DNA from: a virus
Strand: one strand, 5' to 3'
Virus record (IMG/VR): IMGVR_UViG_3300020463_002541
Span: 1-20,346 of that record
DNA: 20,346 nt
Each line of letters starts with the position of its first letter. Within the stretch, counting starts at the first letter, position 1. A model generated the notes under the pieces. The model was given only the letters and a program-made list of their open reading frames with translations. It was not told where the DNA came from and made no database searches. The position numbers and the translations under genes were made by a program. Shown piece by piece: positions 3,564 to 19,181 of the stretch.

Positions 3564-4328
3564 ATGGCAAAAAGAAGATTTAGAATAGAAGGCGGTAATT
3601 ATGGAGGCGAACTTGTTTTAGGAGAAGTTTCTCCTGCATTTGCTAGTCATTATGCAGAAAGTCAAGATCATGTAGTAGAGGCTGTCTTAGAAGCAGATCA
3701 ACATGGTTGGGGTACTAATGATGAACCAGAAGATGCATTGTTAGATCCAGATGCTCCACCACTACCACGTGAAGACTTCAATATGTGGGAAAATGATGAC
3801 ATTGAACATTTAAACGCACCTTATTCAGATGGCGGATTTACTGTCTATGAAGTCCCTGCAGATGGTTCTGACGATTGGGATTATGATAATGAAGTATATG
3901 AAGGAGAAGGCATCTGTGTTTATGGCAGAGAAGGCGGATACTTTGGTCATGAAGAACCTGAATTAGTTAATGAAGAGGACGAAGAAGGAAACAAATATGT
4001 TCCAGTGTTACTTTTCCATAGTTCAGAAAAAGGAAGTTTTGCTTGTTGGTTTGCAGAAACCAATGGAGAAGATTTTGATGAATTTAAACTAGGTTACAGT
4101 ATTATAGAAACCAATTTATGTGAAATGGTTGAAAATGTTTACTATGATAAGCAAGAACTTGACGCAAACTATGATTACAATGACACAACCGGAAAAGGTT
4201 ATGATGCAGAAGTAGGCTGGTTAAATATGAAATGGCATGATAGCGATGAACTTTCACAAGAAAACATGGATGAATATTGGTTAGAATATGATGACATGGT
4301 AGAAGAGGAGAGAGAACTTAGAGGATGA
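3564..4328 (+). CDS. highly acidic protein of unknown function
   Basis: The 254-residue protein starts after a perfect AGGAGG (3554-3559), one of the best ribosome sites in the window, implying strong translation. The composition is extreme: Asp and Glu dominate, especially residues 50-75, 95-145 and 195-254, with very few Lys/Arg outside the basic start MAKRRFR. Tyr, Trp and Phe are also frequent. No catalytic motif is visible. The segment YVPVLLFHSSEKGSFACWFAE (about 149-169) looks like a folded core. Acidic phage proteins of this size can be DNA mimics that block host nucleases or restriction enzymes, or partners of basic DNA-binding proteins; both are inference. The gene overlaps the next by 4 bases (ATGA), indicating translational coupling. 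Confidence 0.8.
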   Translation: MAKRRFRIEGGNYGGELVLGEVSPAFASHYAESQDHVVEAVLEADQHGWGTNDEPEDALLDPDAPPLPREDFNMWENDDIEHLNAPYSDGGFTVYEVPADGSDDWDYDNEVYEGEGICVYGREGGYFGHEEPELVNEEDEEGNKYVPVLLFHSSEKGSFACWFAETNGEDFDEFKLGYSIIETNLCEMVENVYYDKQELDANYDYNDTTGKGYDAEVGWLNMKWHDSDELSQENMDEYWLEYDDMVEEERELRG

Positions 4329-5125
4329 AAAGAGTTTTAATTTTTGGTTTACCTGGTTCAGGTAAATCTACTATTGCAGAGAAACTAGTTGAAGTTTTAG
4401 GAAATGCAGACTGGCACAATGCAGATAAAATAAGAGAAACATTTAACGATTGGGACTTTTCTGAAGAGGGTCGCGAACGTCAGGCCTTGCGTATGCGAGA
4501 TTATGTTCGCAAAAGTGTTGCTAAAAAACGTTATGGTATAGCAGATTTTGTTTGCCCTACAAATGAACTAAGAGAAAAACATGTTCCTGAATATGTTATC
4601 TGGATGGATACTATAGAAGAAGGAAGATTTGAGGATACAAATAAACTTTTTGAGCAACCTGACGGTACAACATTTATAAATGCAAGAATTACTGCTGAGG
4701 AGTGGTGGACAGAAGAAAAATGTGAGGAATGGGCAAAATTATTAGCAGTTGATATTAAGGACCATGAGTTTCAACCAAAGCAACCAACAACACAAATGTT
4801 AGGAAGATTTCAGCCTTTCCATGATGGACATAAAGCATTGTTTGAAAAAGCATTAGCAAAACATGGACAAGTTGCTATACTTGTACGTGATATGCCACTA
4901 ACTGATGATAATCCTTGGCAAGTGGATAAGATATGTGAGAACATAGAGATTGCATTGGCCAAACATGCAGGAAAATTTAGATGTTTTCCTGTTCCTAATA
5001 TAATGAATATAACTTACGGCAGAGACGTAGGATATAAAATAGAAGAAGAAGTTCTTGATAAAGAAACACAAAAAATTAGTGCAACTAAAATTCGTAAACA
5101 AATGAAAAAAGAAGGAAAATTGTAA
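4325..5125 (+). CDS. APS-kinase-like P-loop kinase fused to NMNAT/cytidylyltransferase-like domain
   Basis: The 266-residue protein has two domains. Residues 1-145 are a P-loop kinase: Walker A GLPGSGKST (8-16), NADKIR (32-37), FSEEGRERQ (45-53), FVCPTNELR (75-83) and a YVIWMDT strand (90-96). This order mirrors adenylylsulfate kinase (CysC) DGDNIR / FSEADR / FISPFRADR / VFVDT, except that the Ser of the ISP element is Cys here. Residues 157-266 are a HIGH-superfamily nucleotidyltransferase: GRFQPFHDGH (160-169) and ISATKIR (251-257), the two nucleotide-binding signatures of NMN adenylyltransferase and cytidylyltransferase families. A kinase plus adenylyltransferase could work in NAD salvage, as NadR does with the domains in reverse order, or could activate a sugar or alcohol phosphate. 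The substrate is undetermined. The gene is coupled to both neighbours by overlaps. Confidence 0.85.
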   Translation: MKRVLIFGLPGSGKSTIAEKLVEVLGNADWHNADKIRETFNDWDFSEEGRERQALRMRDYVRKSVAKKRYGIADFVCPTNELREKHVPEYVIWMDTIEEGRFEDTNKLFEQPDGTTFINARITAEEWWTEEKCEEWAKLLAVDIKDHEFQPKQPTTQMLGRFQPFHDGHKALFEKALAKHGQVAILVRDMPLTDDNPWQVDKICENIEIALAKHAGKFRCFPVPNIMNITYGRDVGYKIEEEVLDKETQKISATKIRKQMKKEGKL

Positions 5126-5421: not shown

Positions 5422-5591
5422 TAGCAAAAGATCCTGGAAAAATGCATTACTACATCAGTTTAGTTAAAAGTGGTGTAAGAATTGCAGGTTGTATTGTAGC
5501 AGTAATGTTACAAAGTATTACAATATTGGCTATTTCTTTTTTAGTTGCTGAAATTTTAGGCATACTAGAAGAAGTAATAGACGATGTTTAA
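5418..5591 (+). CDS. 57-aa small membrane protein
   Basis: This short gene starts at the ATGA overlap with mazG and ends 8 bases inside the next gene. The product (MIAKDPGKMHYYISLVKSGV...) has a soluble basic start, one hydrophobic segment of about 25 residues (roughly 21-45) and an acidic tail EEVIDDV. This suggests a single transmembrane helix. A similar tiny protein with the KDPGKxHYYISLVKSG start exists in cyanophage genomes as I remember them, which supports it being real. The tight overlaps on both sides also argue for a translated gene. Function unknown. Confidence 0.75.
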   Translation: MIAKDPGKMHYYISLVKSGVRIAGCIVAVMLQSITILAISFLVAEILGILEEVIDDV

Positions 5592-5940
5592 AGTATATGA
5601 AATAAAATTTAAAGATGGCTTTGTGTATTATGGATATACTGCAAAGCCTTTTAACCTTAGGCTTACAGAACACTTAAAGGCAAGCCAAAAAGGTAAAAGT
5701 TTACTTTACAAAAAAATGAGAAACGCAGAATATGACTGTGACTGTAGGGTAGTACAAACATTCCCTACAATGGAAGAGGCATTAGATTGGGAAAAGAAAC
5801 TAATTAAAAGGACTCCACACAATTTAAAACTTAATAAAAGTTGGGGAGGAGAGAATGGCGAAAACAATTACAGAAGATGGAAACAACAAGACATCATCAA
5901 AAAACATTACAAAAGGAAAAAGTCTAAATACAAATTTTAG
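5584..5940 (+). CDS. GIY-YIG domain protein, putative endonuclease
   Basis: The 118-residue protein has a GIY-YIG nuclease-type core: VYEIKF (4-9) and VYYGYT (14-19) as the paired beta strands, Arg26 in NLRLTEHL as the expected catalytic arginine, and Glu70 in ALDWEKKLI as the expected metal-binding glutamate. The lysine/arginine-rich C-terminus (IIKKHYKRKKSKYKF) could bind DNA. The first tyrosine motif is degenerate (VYE rather than GIY), so activity is uncertain. Such single-domain proteins in T4-like phages are often free-standing homing endonucleases, but repair or host-DNA degradation is also possible. Its last 86 bases are shared with the next gene in another frame. Confidence 0.75.
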   Translation: MFKVYEIKFKDGFVYYGYTAKPFNLRLTEHLKASQKGKSLLYKKMRNAEYDCDCRVVQTFPTMEEALDWEKKLIKRTPHNLKLNKSWGGENGENNYRRWKQQDIIKKHYKRKKSKYKF

Positions 5941-13876: not shown

Positions 13877-14146
13877 GTGAAAAAAACCCGTAGTATATTA
13901 GAGGAATTGAATCAAATTTCTGTTGACAGAGATAGAAATCATGTGGTCTCTAATAGAGGCGAGCATGTTATCAATAGTGCTATAAATTTAATAGAGCAAA
14001 TAGAAACTCATTACGATGAGAAAACAGCAAAAGACTTAACTAACAGATTGGTAAACAGTATCAAAGGTAAAGATGTTAGAAAGTTCTCCAGAGGTATTAC
14101 TAAAATTATTAAAGAGTCCCAGAGAGAACAGAAAGATGTTACTTGA
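13877..14146 (+). CDS. 89-aa conserved hypothetical protein (GTG start)
   Basis: The protein starts KKTRSILEELNQISVDRDRN and is predicted helical and charged, with no membrane segment. The sequence closely recalls a hypothetical protein found after gene 41 in cyanophages. The start is GTG at 13877, with GGAG at 13868-13871 spaced 5 bases. Two ATGs between them (13872 and 13875) are followed at once by TGA and cannot encode the protein, which makes GTG the only sensible start. It overlaps the next gene by 11 bases. As the first gene after a late promoter it may belong with virion or head functions, but there is no direct evidence. Confidence 0.78.
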   Translation: MKKTRSILEELNQISVDRDRNHVVSNRGEHVINSAINLIEQIETHYDEKTAKDLTNRLVNSIKGKDVRKFSRGITKIIKESQREQKDVT

Positions 14147-16598
14147 TGATTTTGTAAAACCTATTATAATGGAAACTCCCGCAGATGACATGCGGAGGAA
14201 AGGTATTCCACCTGCATTAGAAAAAGCAGAACCAAATGCTATATTGTCAAGTCTATTAACTTTAGAATCTATACCATCAAGGTATTTTCTAGGGTACACA
14301 GATCCAGACCAAGCAGAACTTGATCAAAATGTTTCGCAGTACTATCATGTTGGATATGATTCCCAAGGCATTTTAGATCAGCCAGGTAATTGGCATGTTT
14401 ATATTGGTGGTACGAAAGATTTTTCAATCAGTAATCCAAATATCATTAACTTTTATAGAACTCTTTTCCCAGATGAAACAGAAGTTATTAGGAACGAAGA
14501 TGAAGTAGAAGTAATAAATTTAAAAGAATATCCCTTAAATACTGCAAAAGTAAGAGCAAAAGAATTAAAAGCATGGTGTAAAGCAGATGGTGGACAAACT
14601 AGGGCGGGCACTGATGGTCATTGGTTTAGGCTTAAAGGTGATGGCAAATTATCTAGAATAAAACAAGAGGAATTCGCTCTTTTACATAAAAAATTGATGC
14701 TTTTTTCTGGTTTTGATGAAAAAGGTAATAGAAGTTTAGAAAGTTTAGAAAAGCATAGGGAAGAAAACGAAAAAAGAATTTTAAATGATCGTGCTAGAGT
14801 AACTGCAACGCCATTAAAAGACGGAGATAAAGCACAGATCCCAGGATTTAAAGATCCTGACACAGGTAAAAGTATAGTTTTTATGTACAAAGGAACTCCA
14901 CCAGAAGGACATTGGGAGTCAGAATTTAGTGGCAAAATAACCGTAGGTTCTCCAGAACATGATATTTTAATGAATATAAAAGGTAAACAAAGTAATGGTG
15001 TAGATCTTTTAGAACCACCAGAACAATTAAAAATATTTGACATTTTAAGTAATCCTTTTAAACTTAGATCATATACAAAAAAGGGTATGAGATTCCAATT
15101 AAATCCAAAATTAAATGCAATGGGAAAATTATTTGGAGTAATTGGTGATGTTGCTGGATCATATATGAAAACAACTTATGATCTAAATAAAGTGGTAGCA
15201 GATTTTAGAAATAACAAAAAAGGTTTTAAGATATTAGCAGATAAATTTGGCACCTACAATTATGAAGATCCCGAAGGCAAACTATTTGATAAAACAAATG
15301 TTGACTCTTTTGTAAATGTATTACAAAAATCTATGATAAGAAATATAGATAAAGGTAATAAAGTAAAAGATGAAAAAGGAAACCTTGTAACTGTAAAAGA
15401 ACTTTATCCAGATTTTGTTACAATAAAAAAACTACTAGATGAAATAGCGGCAGATTATAAAAAAACTTATGGTAAAGATCCTGCACCATTAATGGTGAAT
15501 GATGATGATCCATTAACTTCTGTTAATAATCGAAGAGTAAAAGATAGAAAAACTTTTGATGCATATGGTGACAATATTTACAGGCTTCAAGATAAAATAA
15601 AATTTTTTGTTACACCTAATTTTAAAGAAGGAGATCTTGCTTTATATAAATTAGAATCTGGTGTAGATCGTGGCAAGTTTAGAGGTGTAAACATAGTATC
15701 ACTATTGGATAACAATTATAATTTGGTTATTGTACAAGACACTGATCAACATACTATGCCTCCTTTAGGCAGGATACAAGGTACTAATGAATTCGAACCT
15801 TTAACCAATATGGACCCACGAACACAAAAATATAGAGAAGAATTCACGAAAATACATAAATTTAGTTTACCAGAATATATTATAAAAGCAGACTATAATT
15901 TAGCCTATCTTGGAAAAAAATCAAATGTTGTTGATGGTGCAACTAAAGAGGATATACTAAAACTTAGTAATGCATATAAAGAATTATCTGGTTCAAAATG
16001 GAGTAATGCTCAAAGAAAAGATATTTTAAATAGATTTGGTATTTTTCTTATAAGAGGAGAAAAATTAAGGAAGTATAATCCAGATGCTGTAACAAAATTT
16101 ACTAAAGAAATAGATAACGAAATTAAACTTCTTCCCTCACCAGATACTGAATTAAAAAACCCATTATCAACAATTTTGGCAGATGATAACCAACTAGAAA
16201 AATATTTAAAGGAATTAGAAACATTAAGTTCTGTTAACAGAGACTTTACAACTGGAGAAAATGTCTACTTCTTTGCTGGAAAAAATACTAGTAAACAAGG
16301 ACAAATGATTACTGGCAGAGTAATAGGACCTATCAGAAATAAAGAAGGAAAGCCAGGAGCAACAGTAGGTTTCGAGCCAGGGCAAGAAGATCTTATTTGG
16401 CTTAAAACTAAAGACAATGATGGAAATGGATTTAACATTAGTAGAGAAAGTTTAATGACAGTACAACAAAAGGATGCCCTAGACAAGTTAGGATTAAGTC
16501 CTTTATTAGATGAGTACAAGGGTCAAAAAATTAATCCAAAAGAATTAATGCAAAAATATATACAAATGCTACAAGATGGTTCTGTTGATACAAAATGA
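14136..16598 (+). CDS. 820-aa protein of unknown function, late block
   Basis: I do not recognise this large protein. I chose the ATG at 14136, overlapping the preceding gene by 11 bases, over the in-frame 14073, because the upstream part lies wholly inside the previous gene. It also gives a short N-terminus, MLLDDFVKPIIMETPADD, containing I-M-E|T at residues 11-14, near the T4 prohead-protease consensus (I/L)xE|(A/G). Visible features are two small-domain-like beta segments near 190-260 and 480-560 (TPNFKEGDLALYKLESG), many Lys/Asp-rich helices, and a C-terminal domain with GENVYFFAGKNTSKQGQMI and IWLKTKDNDGNGFNISRESL. No transmembrane segment or enzyme motif is seen. Its late context and coupling (ATGA) to the ligase-like gene suggest a virion or packaged protein. 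Confidence 0.75.
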   Translation: MLLDDFVKPIIMETPADDMRRKGIPPALEKAEPNAILSSLLTLESIPSRYFLGYTDPDQAELDQNVSQYYHVGYDSQGILDQPGNWHVYIGGTKDFSISNPNIINFYRTLFPDETEVIRNEDEVEVINLKEYPLNTAKVRAKELKAWCKADGGQTRAGTDGHWFRLKGDGKLSRIKQEEFALLHKKLMLFSGFDEKGNRSLESLEKHREENEKRILNDRARVTATPLKDGDKAQIPGFKDPDTGKSIVFMYKGTPPEGHWESEFSGKITVGSPEHDILMNIKGKQSNGVDLLEPPEQLKIFDILSNPFKLRSYTKKGMRFQLNPKLNAMGKLFGVIGDVAGSYMKTTYDLNKVVADFRNNKKGFKILADKFGTYNYEDPEGKLFDKTNVDSFVNVLQKSMIRNIDKGNKVKDEKGNLVTVKELYPDFVTIKKLLDEIAADYKKTYGKDPAPLMVNDDDPLTSVNNRRVKDRKTFDAYGDNIYRLQDKIKFFVTPNFKEGDLALYKLESGVDRGKFRGVNIVSLLDNNYNLVIVQDTDQHTMPPLGRIQGTNEFEPLTNMDPRTQKYREEFTKIHKFSLPEYIIKADYNLAYLGKKSNVVDGATKEDILKLSNAYKELSGSKWSNAQRKDILNRFGIFLIRGEKLRKYNPDAVTKFTKEIDNEIKLLPSPDTELKNPLSTILADDNQLEKYLKELETLSSVNRDFTTGENVYFFAGKNTSKQGQMITGRVIGPIRNKEGKPGATVGFEPGQEDLIWLKTKDNDGNGFNISRESLMTVQQKDALDKLGLSPLLDEYKGQKINPKELMQKYIQMLQDGSVDTK

Positions 16599-17854
16599 AA
16601 TTTTTAGATGTTACAAAACCTCTAGTAACACAAATTATACTAGAAGCAGAAAATAAAAATACCCATTTAGAACATTTGGAAGATCATATTTTTAATAAAG
16701 GATATGATGGAGCCAAAGAAGCAGTGGATTATCTTCACAGTTTACATGAAATGCTGGAAGGCAGTAGTAAAACAAAAATATCTATGACAACAAAATGGGA
16801 CGGTGCTCCAGCAATAGTGTGTGGCAGAGATCCTGAATCTGGAAAGTTTTTTGTAGGTACAAAAGGTGTATTTGCACAAAGACCCAAATTAAATTTTACA
16901 GATAAAGACATATTACAAAATCATCCTGATCCTGGTTTACAGGAAATACTAAAAGTAGCATTACAAAATTTATCCAAGTTAAACATAGATACAGTTGTGC
17001 AAGGCGATATGCTTTTTAAAAAAGACACAGTCCAAACAGGCACAATAGATGGAGATAAGGTTGTTTATTTTAAACCAAATACAATTATATATGCTGTACC
17101 TCAAGACAGCGAATTAGCAAAGCAAATACAACAAGCAGAAATGGGTATAGTTTTTCATACTGAATATGTAGGAGGACCTACACTAGCAGACACCTCAGCA
17201 AAGTTTGGATATAATAGTAATGAATTAAATAAAAATCCTGATGTTTGGTTTAGAGATGCTACTATAAAGGACCTTAGTGGTACTGTAACACTTACAGAAC
17301 AGGAAAGTGTTGATTTAATTAAAGCAATTACTGATGCTAATAGTTATCTAACAAAAATAGGTAAGCCAATGTTTGACTGGATAGGCAAAGGTTCAGATGT
17401 AATTGGTAAAGATTTTATACAATATCTAAAAGCACATGTAAACAGTAATATCAGACAAGGATATATTGAGCAAGAGCCTGCCAAATTTGCAAGTGAGTTT
17501 ACACAAAGTTATATTGCTCGTATGGAAAAAAAGATTGAAGGATACAAAACAGAAAAAAAACAAGAAGAATATAGGAAAATTTTAGTAGAAGGTGTAAAAT
17601 TTTTAAAAGAACATGTAAACAGTATTGTAGGTGTATATGACTTATATACTAAACTTATTGGTGCAAAAAATTTAATAGTGCAAAAATTAGAAACTATAAG
17701 ACAAATGCCTACATTTAAAGAAACAGAAAACGGATTTGAGGTAACAGCAGAGGAAGGATTTGTTGCAGTAGACAGAACAGGAAATGCTTTAAAAATTATT
17801 GACAGATTAGAGTTTAGTAGATTAAACTTTGGTTCAGGGAGGCCTGGAGAATAA
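16595..17854 (+). CDS. ligase-like nucleotidyltransferase-fold protein, possible packaged enzyme
   Basis: The 419-residue protein carries an arrangement like that of covalent nucleotidyltransferases (DNA/RNA ligases, capping enzymes). TTKWDGAPAIV (65-75) matches motif I KxDG with Lys67 as the candidate adenylated lysine. FVGTKGVF (86-93) resembles motif Ia (SRxG). VVQGDMLF (134-141) resembles motif III. GIVFHTEY (184-191) resembles IIIa. AEEGFVAVDR (385-394) resembles motif IV EGxV, and ALKIIDRLEF (398-407) resembles motif V. A ~190-residue, mostly helical insert separates IIIa from IV, unlike standard ligases. N-terminal ILEA (15-18) fits the T4 prohead protease consensus (I/L)xE|A. I recall it as a conserved cyanophage protein of unknown function. 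Catalytic activity is inferred, not shown. Confidence 0.7.
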   Translation: MKFLDVTKPLVTQIILEAENKNTHLEHLEDHIFNKGYDGAKEAVDYLHSLHEMLEGSSKTKISMTTKWDGAPAIVCGRDPESGKFFVGTKGVFAQRPKLNFTDKDILQNHPDPGLQEILKVALQNLSKLNIDTVVQGDMLFKKDTVQTGTIDGDKVVYFKPNTIIYAVPQDSELAKQIQQAEMGIVFHTEYVGGPTLADTSAKFGYNSNELNKNPDVWFRDATIKDLSGTVTLTEQESVDLIKAITDANSYLTKIGKPMFDWIGKGSDVIGKDFIQYLKAHVNSNIRQGYIEQEPAKFASEFTQSYIARMEKKIEGYKTEKKQEEYRKILVEGVKFLKEHVNSIVGVYDLYTKLIGAKNLIVQKLETIRQMPTFKETENGFEVTAEEGFVAVDRTGNALKIIDRLEFSRLNFGSGRPGE

Positions 17855-18651
17855 TGGAATTAGACTTTTTAGATAATGAAATCACAGAAGGCAGACTTTT
17901 TAGAACTTCTCGTAATTACAAAAACTTAACTGGCCGTAATGTTGCAGATTTATTTTACTTAACCAGTTTAGCAATATACATAATGGAAAAGGATAGTAAG
18001 CAATCTGATTTTGCAAGAGCATACGCAAAACGTACTACTCAATACGGTCCTTATTCTTTATTTAGAACACATGCAACAGACCTATATTTGTTGGGATATG
18101 TAATTGATAATCCAGACAACGACAATATAATACTTAAAGATCATATAAACAGTACAAATTTTTTAAAAGGAATCAAATTAACAAATAGGAGACATTGGAA
18201 CTTTTTTAATAAAATAGGCAGAGGTGCTATTGTTGATGGACCAGTATCATTTTTTATTAGTTTGGAAAATCAACTTAAAATAAAAGATGCCAGATACAAA
18301 TCCTGGAGAAGATTTGCAACAGATTGGCAAAGTACTAAATTTAGATCTAAGCAATATGTTACATCAAAAATTATACAAGAATTTAGGCGTATAGGTTTAG
18401 GTAGCGAAATGATGGCACCATTACAAACAATGACTAAATACAGAAGTTATGATGTAATTAGCAAATATAAAAAGAAGCCTAGCACTAGCAGAAAAGTTGC
18501 AGGTGCAGTAGCAGGTGCAGTAGCAGGAAGATATGCAGGTAAAAAGATAGCACAAAAATTTGGCAAAGATGTAGATAAATATAAGAGAGCAGGTACAGGC
18601 ATCGGCGCAATAGCAGGATATTGGGCCGGAGGAAGACAAAGGCAATCATGA
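17854..18651 (+). CDS. basic protein with C-terminal glycine zippers, late block
   Basis: The 265-residue protein is basic (many Lys/Arg, Tyr, Phe). Residues 216-229 (AGAVAGAVAGRYAG) and 247-260 (GTGIGAIAGYWAGG) are glycine-zipper motifs, which pack helices in membranes or oligomers, separated by a lysine-rich linker. The N-terminus contains E-I-T-E|G (9-13), an exact match to the T4 prohead-protease consensus (I/L)xE|(A/G). No enzyme motif is visible in residues 20-210. It is coupled to the ligase-like gene by TAATG and to the next gene by ATGA. A membrane-active or DNA-binding internal head protein is a reasonable guess, no more. Confidence 0.72.
   Translation: MELDFLDNEITEGRLFRTSRNYKNLTGRNVADLFYLTSLAIYIMEKDSKQSDFARAYAKRTTQYGPYSLFRTHATDLYLLGYVIDNPDNDNIILKDHINSTNFLKGIKLTNRRHWNFFNKIGRGAIVDGPVSFFISLENQLKIKDARYKSWRRFATDWQSTKFRSKQYVTSKIIQEFRRIGLGSEMMAPLQTMTKYRSYDVISKYKKKPSTSRKVAGAVAGAVAGRYAGKKIAQKFGKDVDKYKRAGTGIGAIAGYWAGGRQRQS
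18499..18527 (+). repeat. 12-nt in-frame tandem repeat in glycine-zipper region
   Basis: The unit GCAGGTGCAGTA occurs twice in succession (18499-18510, 18511-18522) and is followed by a partial copy. It encodes AGAV-AGAV and could expand or contract by slippage without shifting the frame. Confidence 0.7.
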
Positions 18652-19181
18652 AAATTAATGAAATAATATTAAAGGAAGAATTAGACCAAAAAGAAGCCGA
18701 TATGGTTTATCAGGGACTTATTTCTTCTAGTGATCCATATGACAGACAAGTTGCTCAATCGTTTATGAAAACTAGAAACGATCCTAGGCATGCATCTGTG
18801 GATTCTGCTCAACAGGCGGCTGAAACACAGGCTCGTAATGAAATGAAGAAAAAAGTTGCTAAAATTAAACAAGCAGAAGCAGACGGTAAAATTAAAGTAC
18901 AAGAACCTAATAAACAATCAGAAAAAACAAAAAGAGAGTACAGTGATAAGTTTTATGGAAACCAATATGTTCAAATTAAAGGTGATACAGCATTAGTACA
19001 AGATCTTAAAAAATATTTGCCTGTTATAGATCAAGGAATTGTAAAAGCAACTAGTTCGGGTTTAGTTTCAGGTGCAAATTTATCAGGTGCTTTTGACACA
19101 GGTCTAATGGGTCTCTTACCCGCAACAACTGTTAAATATCAATCTAAATTTGGCAGTAAACCAGGATACTTACAAAAATAA
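18648..19181 (+). CDS. 177-aa hypothetical protein, late block
   Basis: I chose the ATG at 18648, which overlaps the preceding stop as ATGA, over the in-frame 18621. The resulting N-terminus MKINEIILKEELDQ resembles the short starts of T4 internal and core proteins. It contains L-K-E|E at 8-11, near but not matching the protease consensus. The middle (about 55-105) is a charged, Ala/Lys/Glu-rich helix or coiled coil, and the C-terminal 70 residues (YVQIKGDTALVQDLKKYLPV onward, then a Gly/Ser/Leu-rich part) look globular. No known domain is recognised. It is the last gene of the block, followed by a 103-base non-coding stretch. Confidence 0.72.
   Translation: MKINEIILKEELDQKEADMVYQGLISSSDPYDRQVAQSFMKTRNDPRHASVDSAQQAAETQARNEMKKKVAKIKQAEADGKIKVQEPNKQSEKTKREYSDKFYGNQYVQIKGDTALVQDLKKYLPVIDQGIVKATSSGLVSGANLSGAFDTGLMGLLPATTVKYQSKFGSKPGYLQK

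Follow-up and report, generated by a model that had tools for sequence, protein, structure and literature searches.

Four consecutive late genes in a 20-kb virus record encode proteins that each begin with a short leader ending in (I/L)xE. Do these leaders direct the proteins into the phage head, in the manner of the internal proteins of phage T4? We addressed this question for the whole stretch of 20,346 nucleotides, referred to below as the window, and for the relatives of its genes.

The window and its four leader genes

A search of 50,697 phage records gave no close DNA match to the window. Its gene order runs from replication genes (a DnaB-like helicase and a primase-like Toprim protein) through a gene for an 89-aa protein and the four leader genes to small proteins. 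The 89-aa protein (13877..14146, + strand) matches phrog_11854 (1.6e-23), a PHROG with the annotation "virion structural protein". It is followed on the same strand by P820, an 820-aa protein (14136..16598); a DUF6267 protein of 419 aa (16595..17854; Pfam PF19782, 3.7e-106); GLZ, a 265-aa protein with a C-terminal glycine-zipper-like segment (17854..18651); and P177, of 177 aa (18648..19181). P820, GLZ, and P177 were delimited as open reading frames and by comparison with their relatives, which for P820 are homologues in the same slot with similar leaders. The block belongs to a larger late cluster that includes modular fusions. As main relative we used G001 (locus L039), a contig of 250,519 bp whose DUF6267 protein is 88% identical to that of the window; it was inspected over its full length, with 267 genes called by our own script.

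The preliminary description had reported four consecutive proteins with (I/L)xE leaders, and the open reading frames confirm this. With a slash for the predicted cut, the leaders are MLLDDFVKPIIME/T in P820, MKFLDVTKPLVTQIILE/A in the DUF6267 protein, MELDFLDNEITE/G in GLZ, and MKINEIILKE/E in P177; the sites IME/T, ILE/A, ITE/G, and LKE/E lie at residues 10-17. Two of them had been described as matching the T4 consensus exactly and two nearly. The sites stand and the count does not: all four fit the T4 rule, because cleavage after L/I-x-E has no stated requirement at P1' (PMC9026906). All four leaders have I or L at P3, and the A-x-E motif of the SPN3US/phiKZ type was not found in them. T4 internal proteins have propeptides of 10-19 residues, and in IPIII the first 10 residues are enough (PMC9026906); a propeptide of about this length ending in L/I-x-E is present in all four proteins. 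The predicted cuts fall after E13 in P820 (leader 14136..14174, +), E17 in the DUF6267 protein (16595..16645, +), E12 in GLZ (17854..17889, +), and E10 in P177 (18648..18677, +), whose 10-residue leader has the length of the IPIII capsid targeting sequence.

Each of the four genes overlaps its neighbours by a few bases; the first 11 nt of the P820 leader, for example, overlap the 3' end of the 89-aa gene. These overlaps span only the first one to four codons, and the IxE lies downstream of them. All four start codons are backed by relatives in which the same ATG is used, overlapping or abutting the preceding gene. For P177 this ATG overlaps the GLZ stop codon, and the mechanical open reading frame begins at a TTG at 18621. 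The N-terminus of the 89-aa protein, KKTRSILE/E, also fits the motif; it is uninformative, because the entire N-terminus of this protein is conserved.

Conservation of the leaders

The DUF6267 family is present in 465 phage records. We aligned the protein from the window with 19 others that are 55-93% identical to it. E17 is invariant in all 20 proteins, whereas the length and sequence of the leader vary. Leaders are also present in Melnitz (ending in KYITE/), C48C1 (NFITE/), DLP6 (QFLAE/), and HTVC008M (LLVE/). In cyanophages S-PM2, P-HM2, S-SZBM1, DSL-LC02, S-PRM1, and S-CAM9 the DUF6267 protein has no leader. These orthologues start with MAKNTHLEH, MSKNTHLEH, or similar, at about the position of the cut predicted here, which would leave AENKNTHLEH as the mature N-terminus; this prediction is drawn from the alignment and from the leaderless orthologues. 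K67, W68, D69, and G70 are also invariant in the 20 proteins and resemble ligase motif I. DUF6267 is the sole Pfam match of this protein, and neither its sequence nor its predicted structure (pLDDT 68) has a match in the PDB, so the KWDG motif is the one ground for calling it ligase-like.

P820 has no match in Pfam or PHROG, and neither P820 nor P177 has a match among annotated phages. A predicted structure of P820 was discarded as unusable (pLDDT 47). Five P820 proteins were aligned, and within residues 1-45 invariance is limited to M1, L2, L3, D5, F6, and E13. The proteins encoded between the 89-aa gene and the DUF6267 gene (slot 1) range from 151 to 1031 aa. They represent about seven architectures, which for the most part have only short segments in common. 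Most of these proteins follow leaders of the type MLINEI.., MLLEDF.., or MRILEV.. that end in an IxE-like site; the site is lost in L041 and L044-L046. The common ML[IL] may be caused in part by the overlap of the first codons with the upstream gene.

Nearly all proteins in the P177 slot (slot 4) have leaders of the form MKI....I..xE. The window and L033 have the leader MKINEIILKEE in common; its coding sequences in the two differ by five synonymous and zero non-synonymous changes, although the bodies of these two proteins cannot be aligned directly by BLAST. We considered that the bodies in this slot might be non-homologous and dropped this idea, since single-linkage BLAST joins them through intermediates into one diverged family. 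The comparison therefore indicates that the bodies diverged fast while the leader stayed constant, and does not prove that they were replaced. Likeness also extends across families: the slot-1 leader MLINEVILQE/A of L012 resembles the slot-4 leader MKINEIILKE. The comparisons in both slots thus give the same picture of a leader common to otherwise different proteins. The leader is a portable tag, behind which the bodies change, fuse, and split.

Frequency of the motif

By itself, the loose [IL]xE motif is weak evidence, barely above chance. With E at residues 9-18, it occurs in 16% of the G001 genes and in 11% of internal windows. When the G001 gene order is shuffled, 13% of the shuffles contain at least four genes with the motif in a row; the run of five genes that G001 displays is reached in 2%. 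An alternative pattern, picked after looking at the data, is found in 6 of the 19 block genes against 10 of the 248 others (p = 3e-4). We judged the leader motif to be real because it is conserved across relatives of the DUF6267 protein, P820, GLZ, and the P177 slot.

GLZ, fusion proteins, and superoxide dismutase

E[IL][ST]E[AG]RL is present in nearly all relatives of GLZ; the site is lost in L037 and L041-L046. The glycine zipper matches of these relatives are below the Pfam cut-off, and the glycine-zipper-like tail suggests membrane contact. In many relatives GLZ is fused in frame behind one or two extra modules. One of these is ParB-like (phrog_8071, 1.4e-9), one has a DGNHR motif and looks ParB-like, and two are unnamed. 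The leader site of GLZ is internal in these fusions, far from any start codon, and reads EISE/A or EITE/G. Several other fusion junctions also carry the motif (GIRE/A, NINE/A, LTE/T).

Gene 30 of G001 (G001:21958-26202, - strand) encodes a related protein of 1414 aa that combines a Cu/Zn superoxide dismutase (Pfam, 5e-40) with ParB-like domains and relatives of the other modules. Comparing linkers with domains in this protein, we found no significant excess of sites in the linkers (p = 0.1-0.4). In all 36 distinct contexts from marine virus contigs, [ILV]xE directly precedes the dismutase core; the proteins range from about 190 aa, with a leader at the N-terminus, up to 2000 aa. Multi-domain or small leader-bearing Cu/Zn superoxide dismutases occur in at least 147 marine virus contig stretches (loci L085-L164). 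The phage collection has only four weak matches to the dismutase; two of these come from Acinetobacter records in which sodC is annotated.

Head proteins and prohead protease

The preliminary description had named similar sites in the head proteins of the phage as a check. The window is a fragment, and a prohead protease of the gp21 type (S77) is not on it. The check was made on the close relative. G001 encodes a Peptidase_S77 (gp21-type) prohead protease (E = 3.3e-27) and a homologue of the T4 capsid protein gp23 (E = 1.6e-44), and sites of the kind sought were found in the latter at residues 41 and 18. At the first, near the position of the T4 maturation cut, L39 and E41 of LxE/A or S (LSE/A in G001) are invariant in 42 sequences, whereas residues 38 and 40 vary. 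The site at residue 18 is also conserved.

Published cyanophage virion proteomes

We compared detected with undetected proteins of cyanophage S-CREM2 using its annotated genome and the published proteome (PMC10665884). The [IL]xE motif is present in 11 of 29 detected non-tail proteins and 25 of 167 undetected proteins (p = 0.006). The strict form [IL]xE[AG] shows no enrichment in the same material (2 of all 52 detected versus 4 of 167 undetected, p = 0.44). The pattern F[ILMF]xE, chosen after looking, is found in 6 of 26 detected non-structural and 3 of 167 undetected proteins (p = 2e-4). The virion enzymes have the T4-like pattern MKxFxxFLxE: a SAM hydrolase begins with MKDFDSFLEE, an APH-like kinase with MKRFDAFLTE, and a cytidylyltransferase with MKNFSSFLTE/A. 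Further virion leaders are ..FASFMAE/A in gp12, MKDLHSFLTE in gp13, and MQTFSMFFSE in gp136. The detected gp12 (OR473000, 7704-10313) is annotated as a Cas9-like nuclease; its FMAE/A at residue 25 suggests packaging by the same leader route.

In the published virion list of S-SZBM1 there is a cytidylyltransferase (MRFRQFIIE/A) whose gene adjoins that of the DUF6267 protein; the leaderless DUF6267 protein itself was not seen in that list. Virions of S-SM1 also contained the cytidylyltransferase T4-GC190 (PMC3037559). The consulted passages of the S-CREM2, S-SZBM1, and S-SCSM1 papers do not mention the leaders, and our literature search found no description of such leaders in cyanophages or of prohead-processed cargo polyproteins.

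A capsid-targeting reading and its alternatives

We consider it likely that a T4-type marine myophage packages the four proteins as cargo inside its head, and that their leaders are T4-type capsid-targeting propeptides. The propeptide of 10-17 residues would dock each protein to the prohead core, and a T4-type prohead protease would cut after the glutamate of (I/L)xE, so that the mature protein is freed within the head. We infer such targeting and cleavage of the four proteins from what is known of T4 and from the published cyanophage proteomes. At infection the mature proteins would presumably exit the head along with the DNA and enter the host cell. Related packaged proteins would be chains of several domains, with sites of this kind at a number of their junctions. 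The suggestion of capsid-targeting propeptides in the preliminary description is supported by the conserved and portable leaders and by the gp21-type protease and gp23 sites of G001. As far as sequence can tell, the system has the features of T4 capsid targeting, and that description appears right in kind. Counting against the capsid-targeting reading are the glutamate at P1' in P177, the commonness of the loose motif, the relatives that have lost the site, the missing enrichment of the strict form among S-CREM2 virion proteins, the DUF6267 protein not seen in the S-SZBM1 list, and the sites of the 1414-aa protein, which are not significantly denser in linkers.

A motif as short as (I/L)xE could have arisen by chance where I, L, and E are abundant in the proteins, with four in a row owed to luck and to the choice of starts, and the frequency of runs of four in the shuffled gene orders is in keeping with this. 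Conservation, however, appears largely to refute it: the P177 leader changes only synonymously, the glutamate is invariant, and leaders are common to several families. The motif is also enriched in the block and, in the S-CREM2 proteome, among detected virion proteins, and we regard chance as very improbable. Equally improbable, in our view, is a role of the conserved N-termini in translation or in the gene overlaps, through coupling in the start region, rather than in packaging. All four genes do overlap their neighbours, but the IxE lies beyond the few codons involved, the P177 peptide is kept while its codons vary, and the fusions keep the motif far from start codons.

Two further alternatives retain a role in the head. 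The leaders might attach to the scaffold or to some other component of the head and so bring the proteins in, with the IxE as part of an uncut binding surface; P1' is variable, and in T4 targeting and processing are separable, in that Asp at position 10 blocks only the latter (PMC9026906). Yet the glutamate is the most constant residue and stands where T4 needs it for processing, the motif recurs at domain junctions, before the dismutase core in all 36 contexts, and in gp23, and the leaderless DUF6267 orthologues begin at about the predicted cut; docking without cleavage is thus unlikely. A variant of the cargo reading keeps leaders and cutting and denies delivery: once cut, the proteins would remain in the head or exit it as structural parts of the virion (of the core, the neck, or an inner-body scaffold) and would not be injected effectors. 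In T4, the same protease also processes core proteins, among them gp22 and gp67, whose role is in head assembly (PMC9026906). The 89-aa neighbour, moreover, matches a structural PHROG. Against this, the bodies differ greatly among close relatives, and the leader proteins of related phages include enzymes (a SAM hydrolase, a kinase, a cytidylyltransferase, and superoxide dismutase) for which we know of no structural role. We think this variant rather doubtful.

Comparison with known systems

The cargo proposed here resembles T4 IPI-IPIII and Alt in propeptide length (10-19 residues in T4, 10-17 here), in the hydrophobic residues before L/I-x-E, in a common leader on diverged proteins, and in a gp21-type protease, here encoded in the close relative. 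It differs in that the bodies are larger and showed no Pfam or PHROG link to T4 internal proteins, in the modular fusions with junction sites, and in that the block is known from sequence alone. Ejection proteins of the SPN3US/phiKZ type likewise form a large set of head proteins, several of them processed after Glu by the prohead protease; however, their motif is A-x-E and most of their propeptides have 111-254 residues (PMC10052503), in contrast to L/I-x-E and short leaders here. In the cyanophages S-CREM2, S-SZBM1, and S-SCSM1, several detected virion enzymes have similar CTS-like N-termini. S-SZBM1 shares the neighbourhood of DUF6267 and cytidylyltransferase, and differs in its leaderless DUF6267 protein.

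In uncultured marine phages, the T4 system would extend to a cargo set that is modular and rich in fusions; our literature search found no earlier description of such a set. The leader would provide a sequence rule for picking out, from the many hypothetical proteins encoded by marine T4-type phages, those that may be carried in the particle and be the first to enter the host. For DUF6267, a family without assigned function, it would point to a function in one branch, that of packaged cargo. More tentatively, uncultured marine T4-type phages might carry a large and swappable library of cargo modules as polyproteins (superoxide dismutase, ParB-like domains, DUF6267, and membrane-active glycine-zipper proteins) that are docked in the head by the leader, cut into individual enzymes by the protease, and injected to protect or reprogramme the host. 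We regard this broader scheme as possible rather than probable.

Other genes of the window and of G001

The window begins with a TonB-dependent outer-membrane receptor (3-1577, +; Plug domain, Pfam 3.6e-9), and G001 has a full copy of 676 aa (G001:52682-54712, -; Plug domain, 1.2e-9). This receptor has no match in the 50,697 phage records; it could perhaps serve superinfection exclusion or nutrient uptake during infection. At 4325-5125 (+) the window encodes a fusion of a P-loop kinase-like and a cytidylyltransferase-like domain in a NadR-like arrangement, both near the Pfam cut-off, and at 5584-5940 (+) a GIY-YIG endonuclease (Pfam 9.3e-9) that is possibly a homing enzyme.

In G001, a single open frame of 6236 aa (G001:133638-152348, +) lies apparently in the tail or baseplate cluster. 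It may be ordinary, because S-SZBM1 has a baseplate wedge protein of 6619 aa. Two small, strongly basic proteins of G001 begin with leaders, MRLEEFTEEPILE/A at G001:32859-33146 (-) and MLIKDIITE/T at G001:20670-20837 (-). They resemble the basic internal proteins of T4 in character, and Melnitz and C48C1 have similar basic neighbours.
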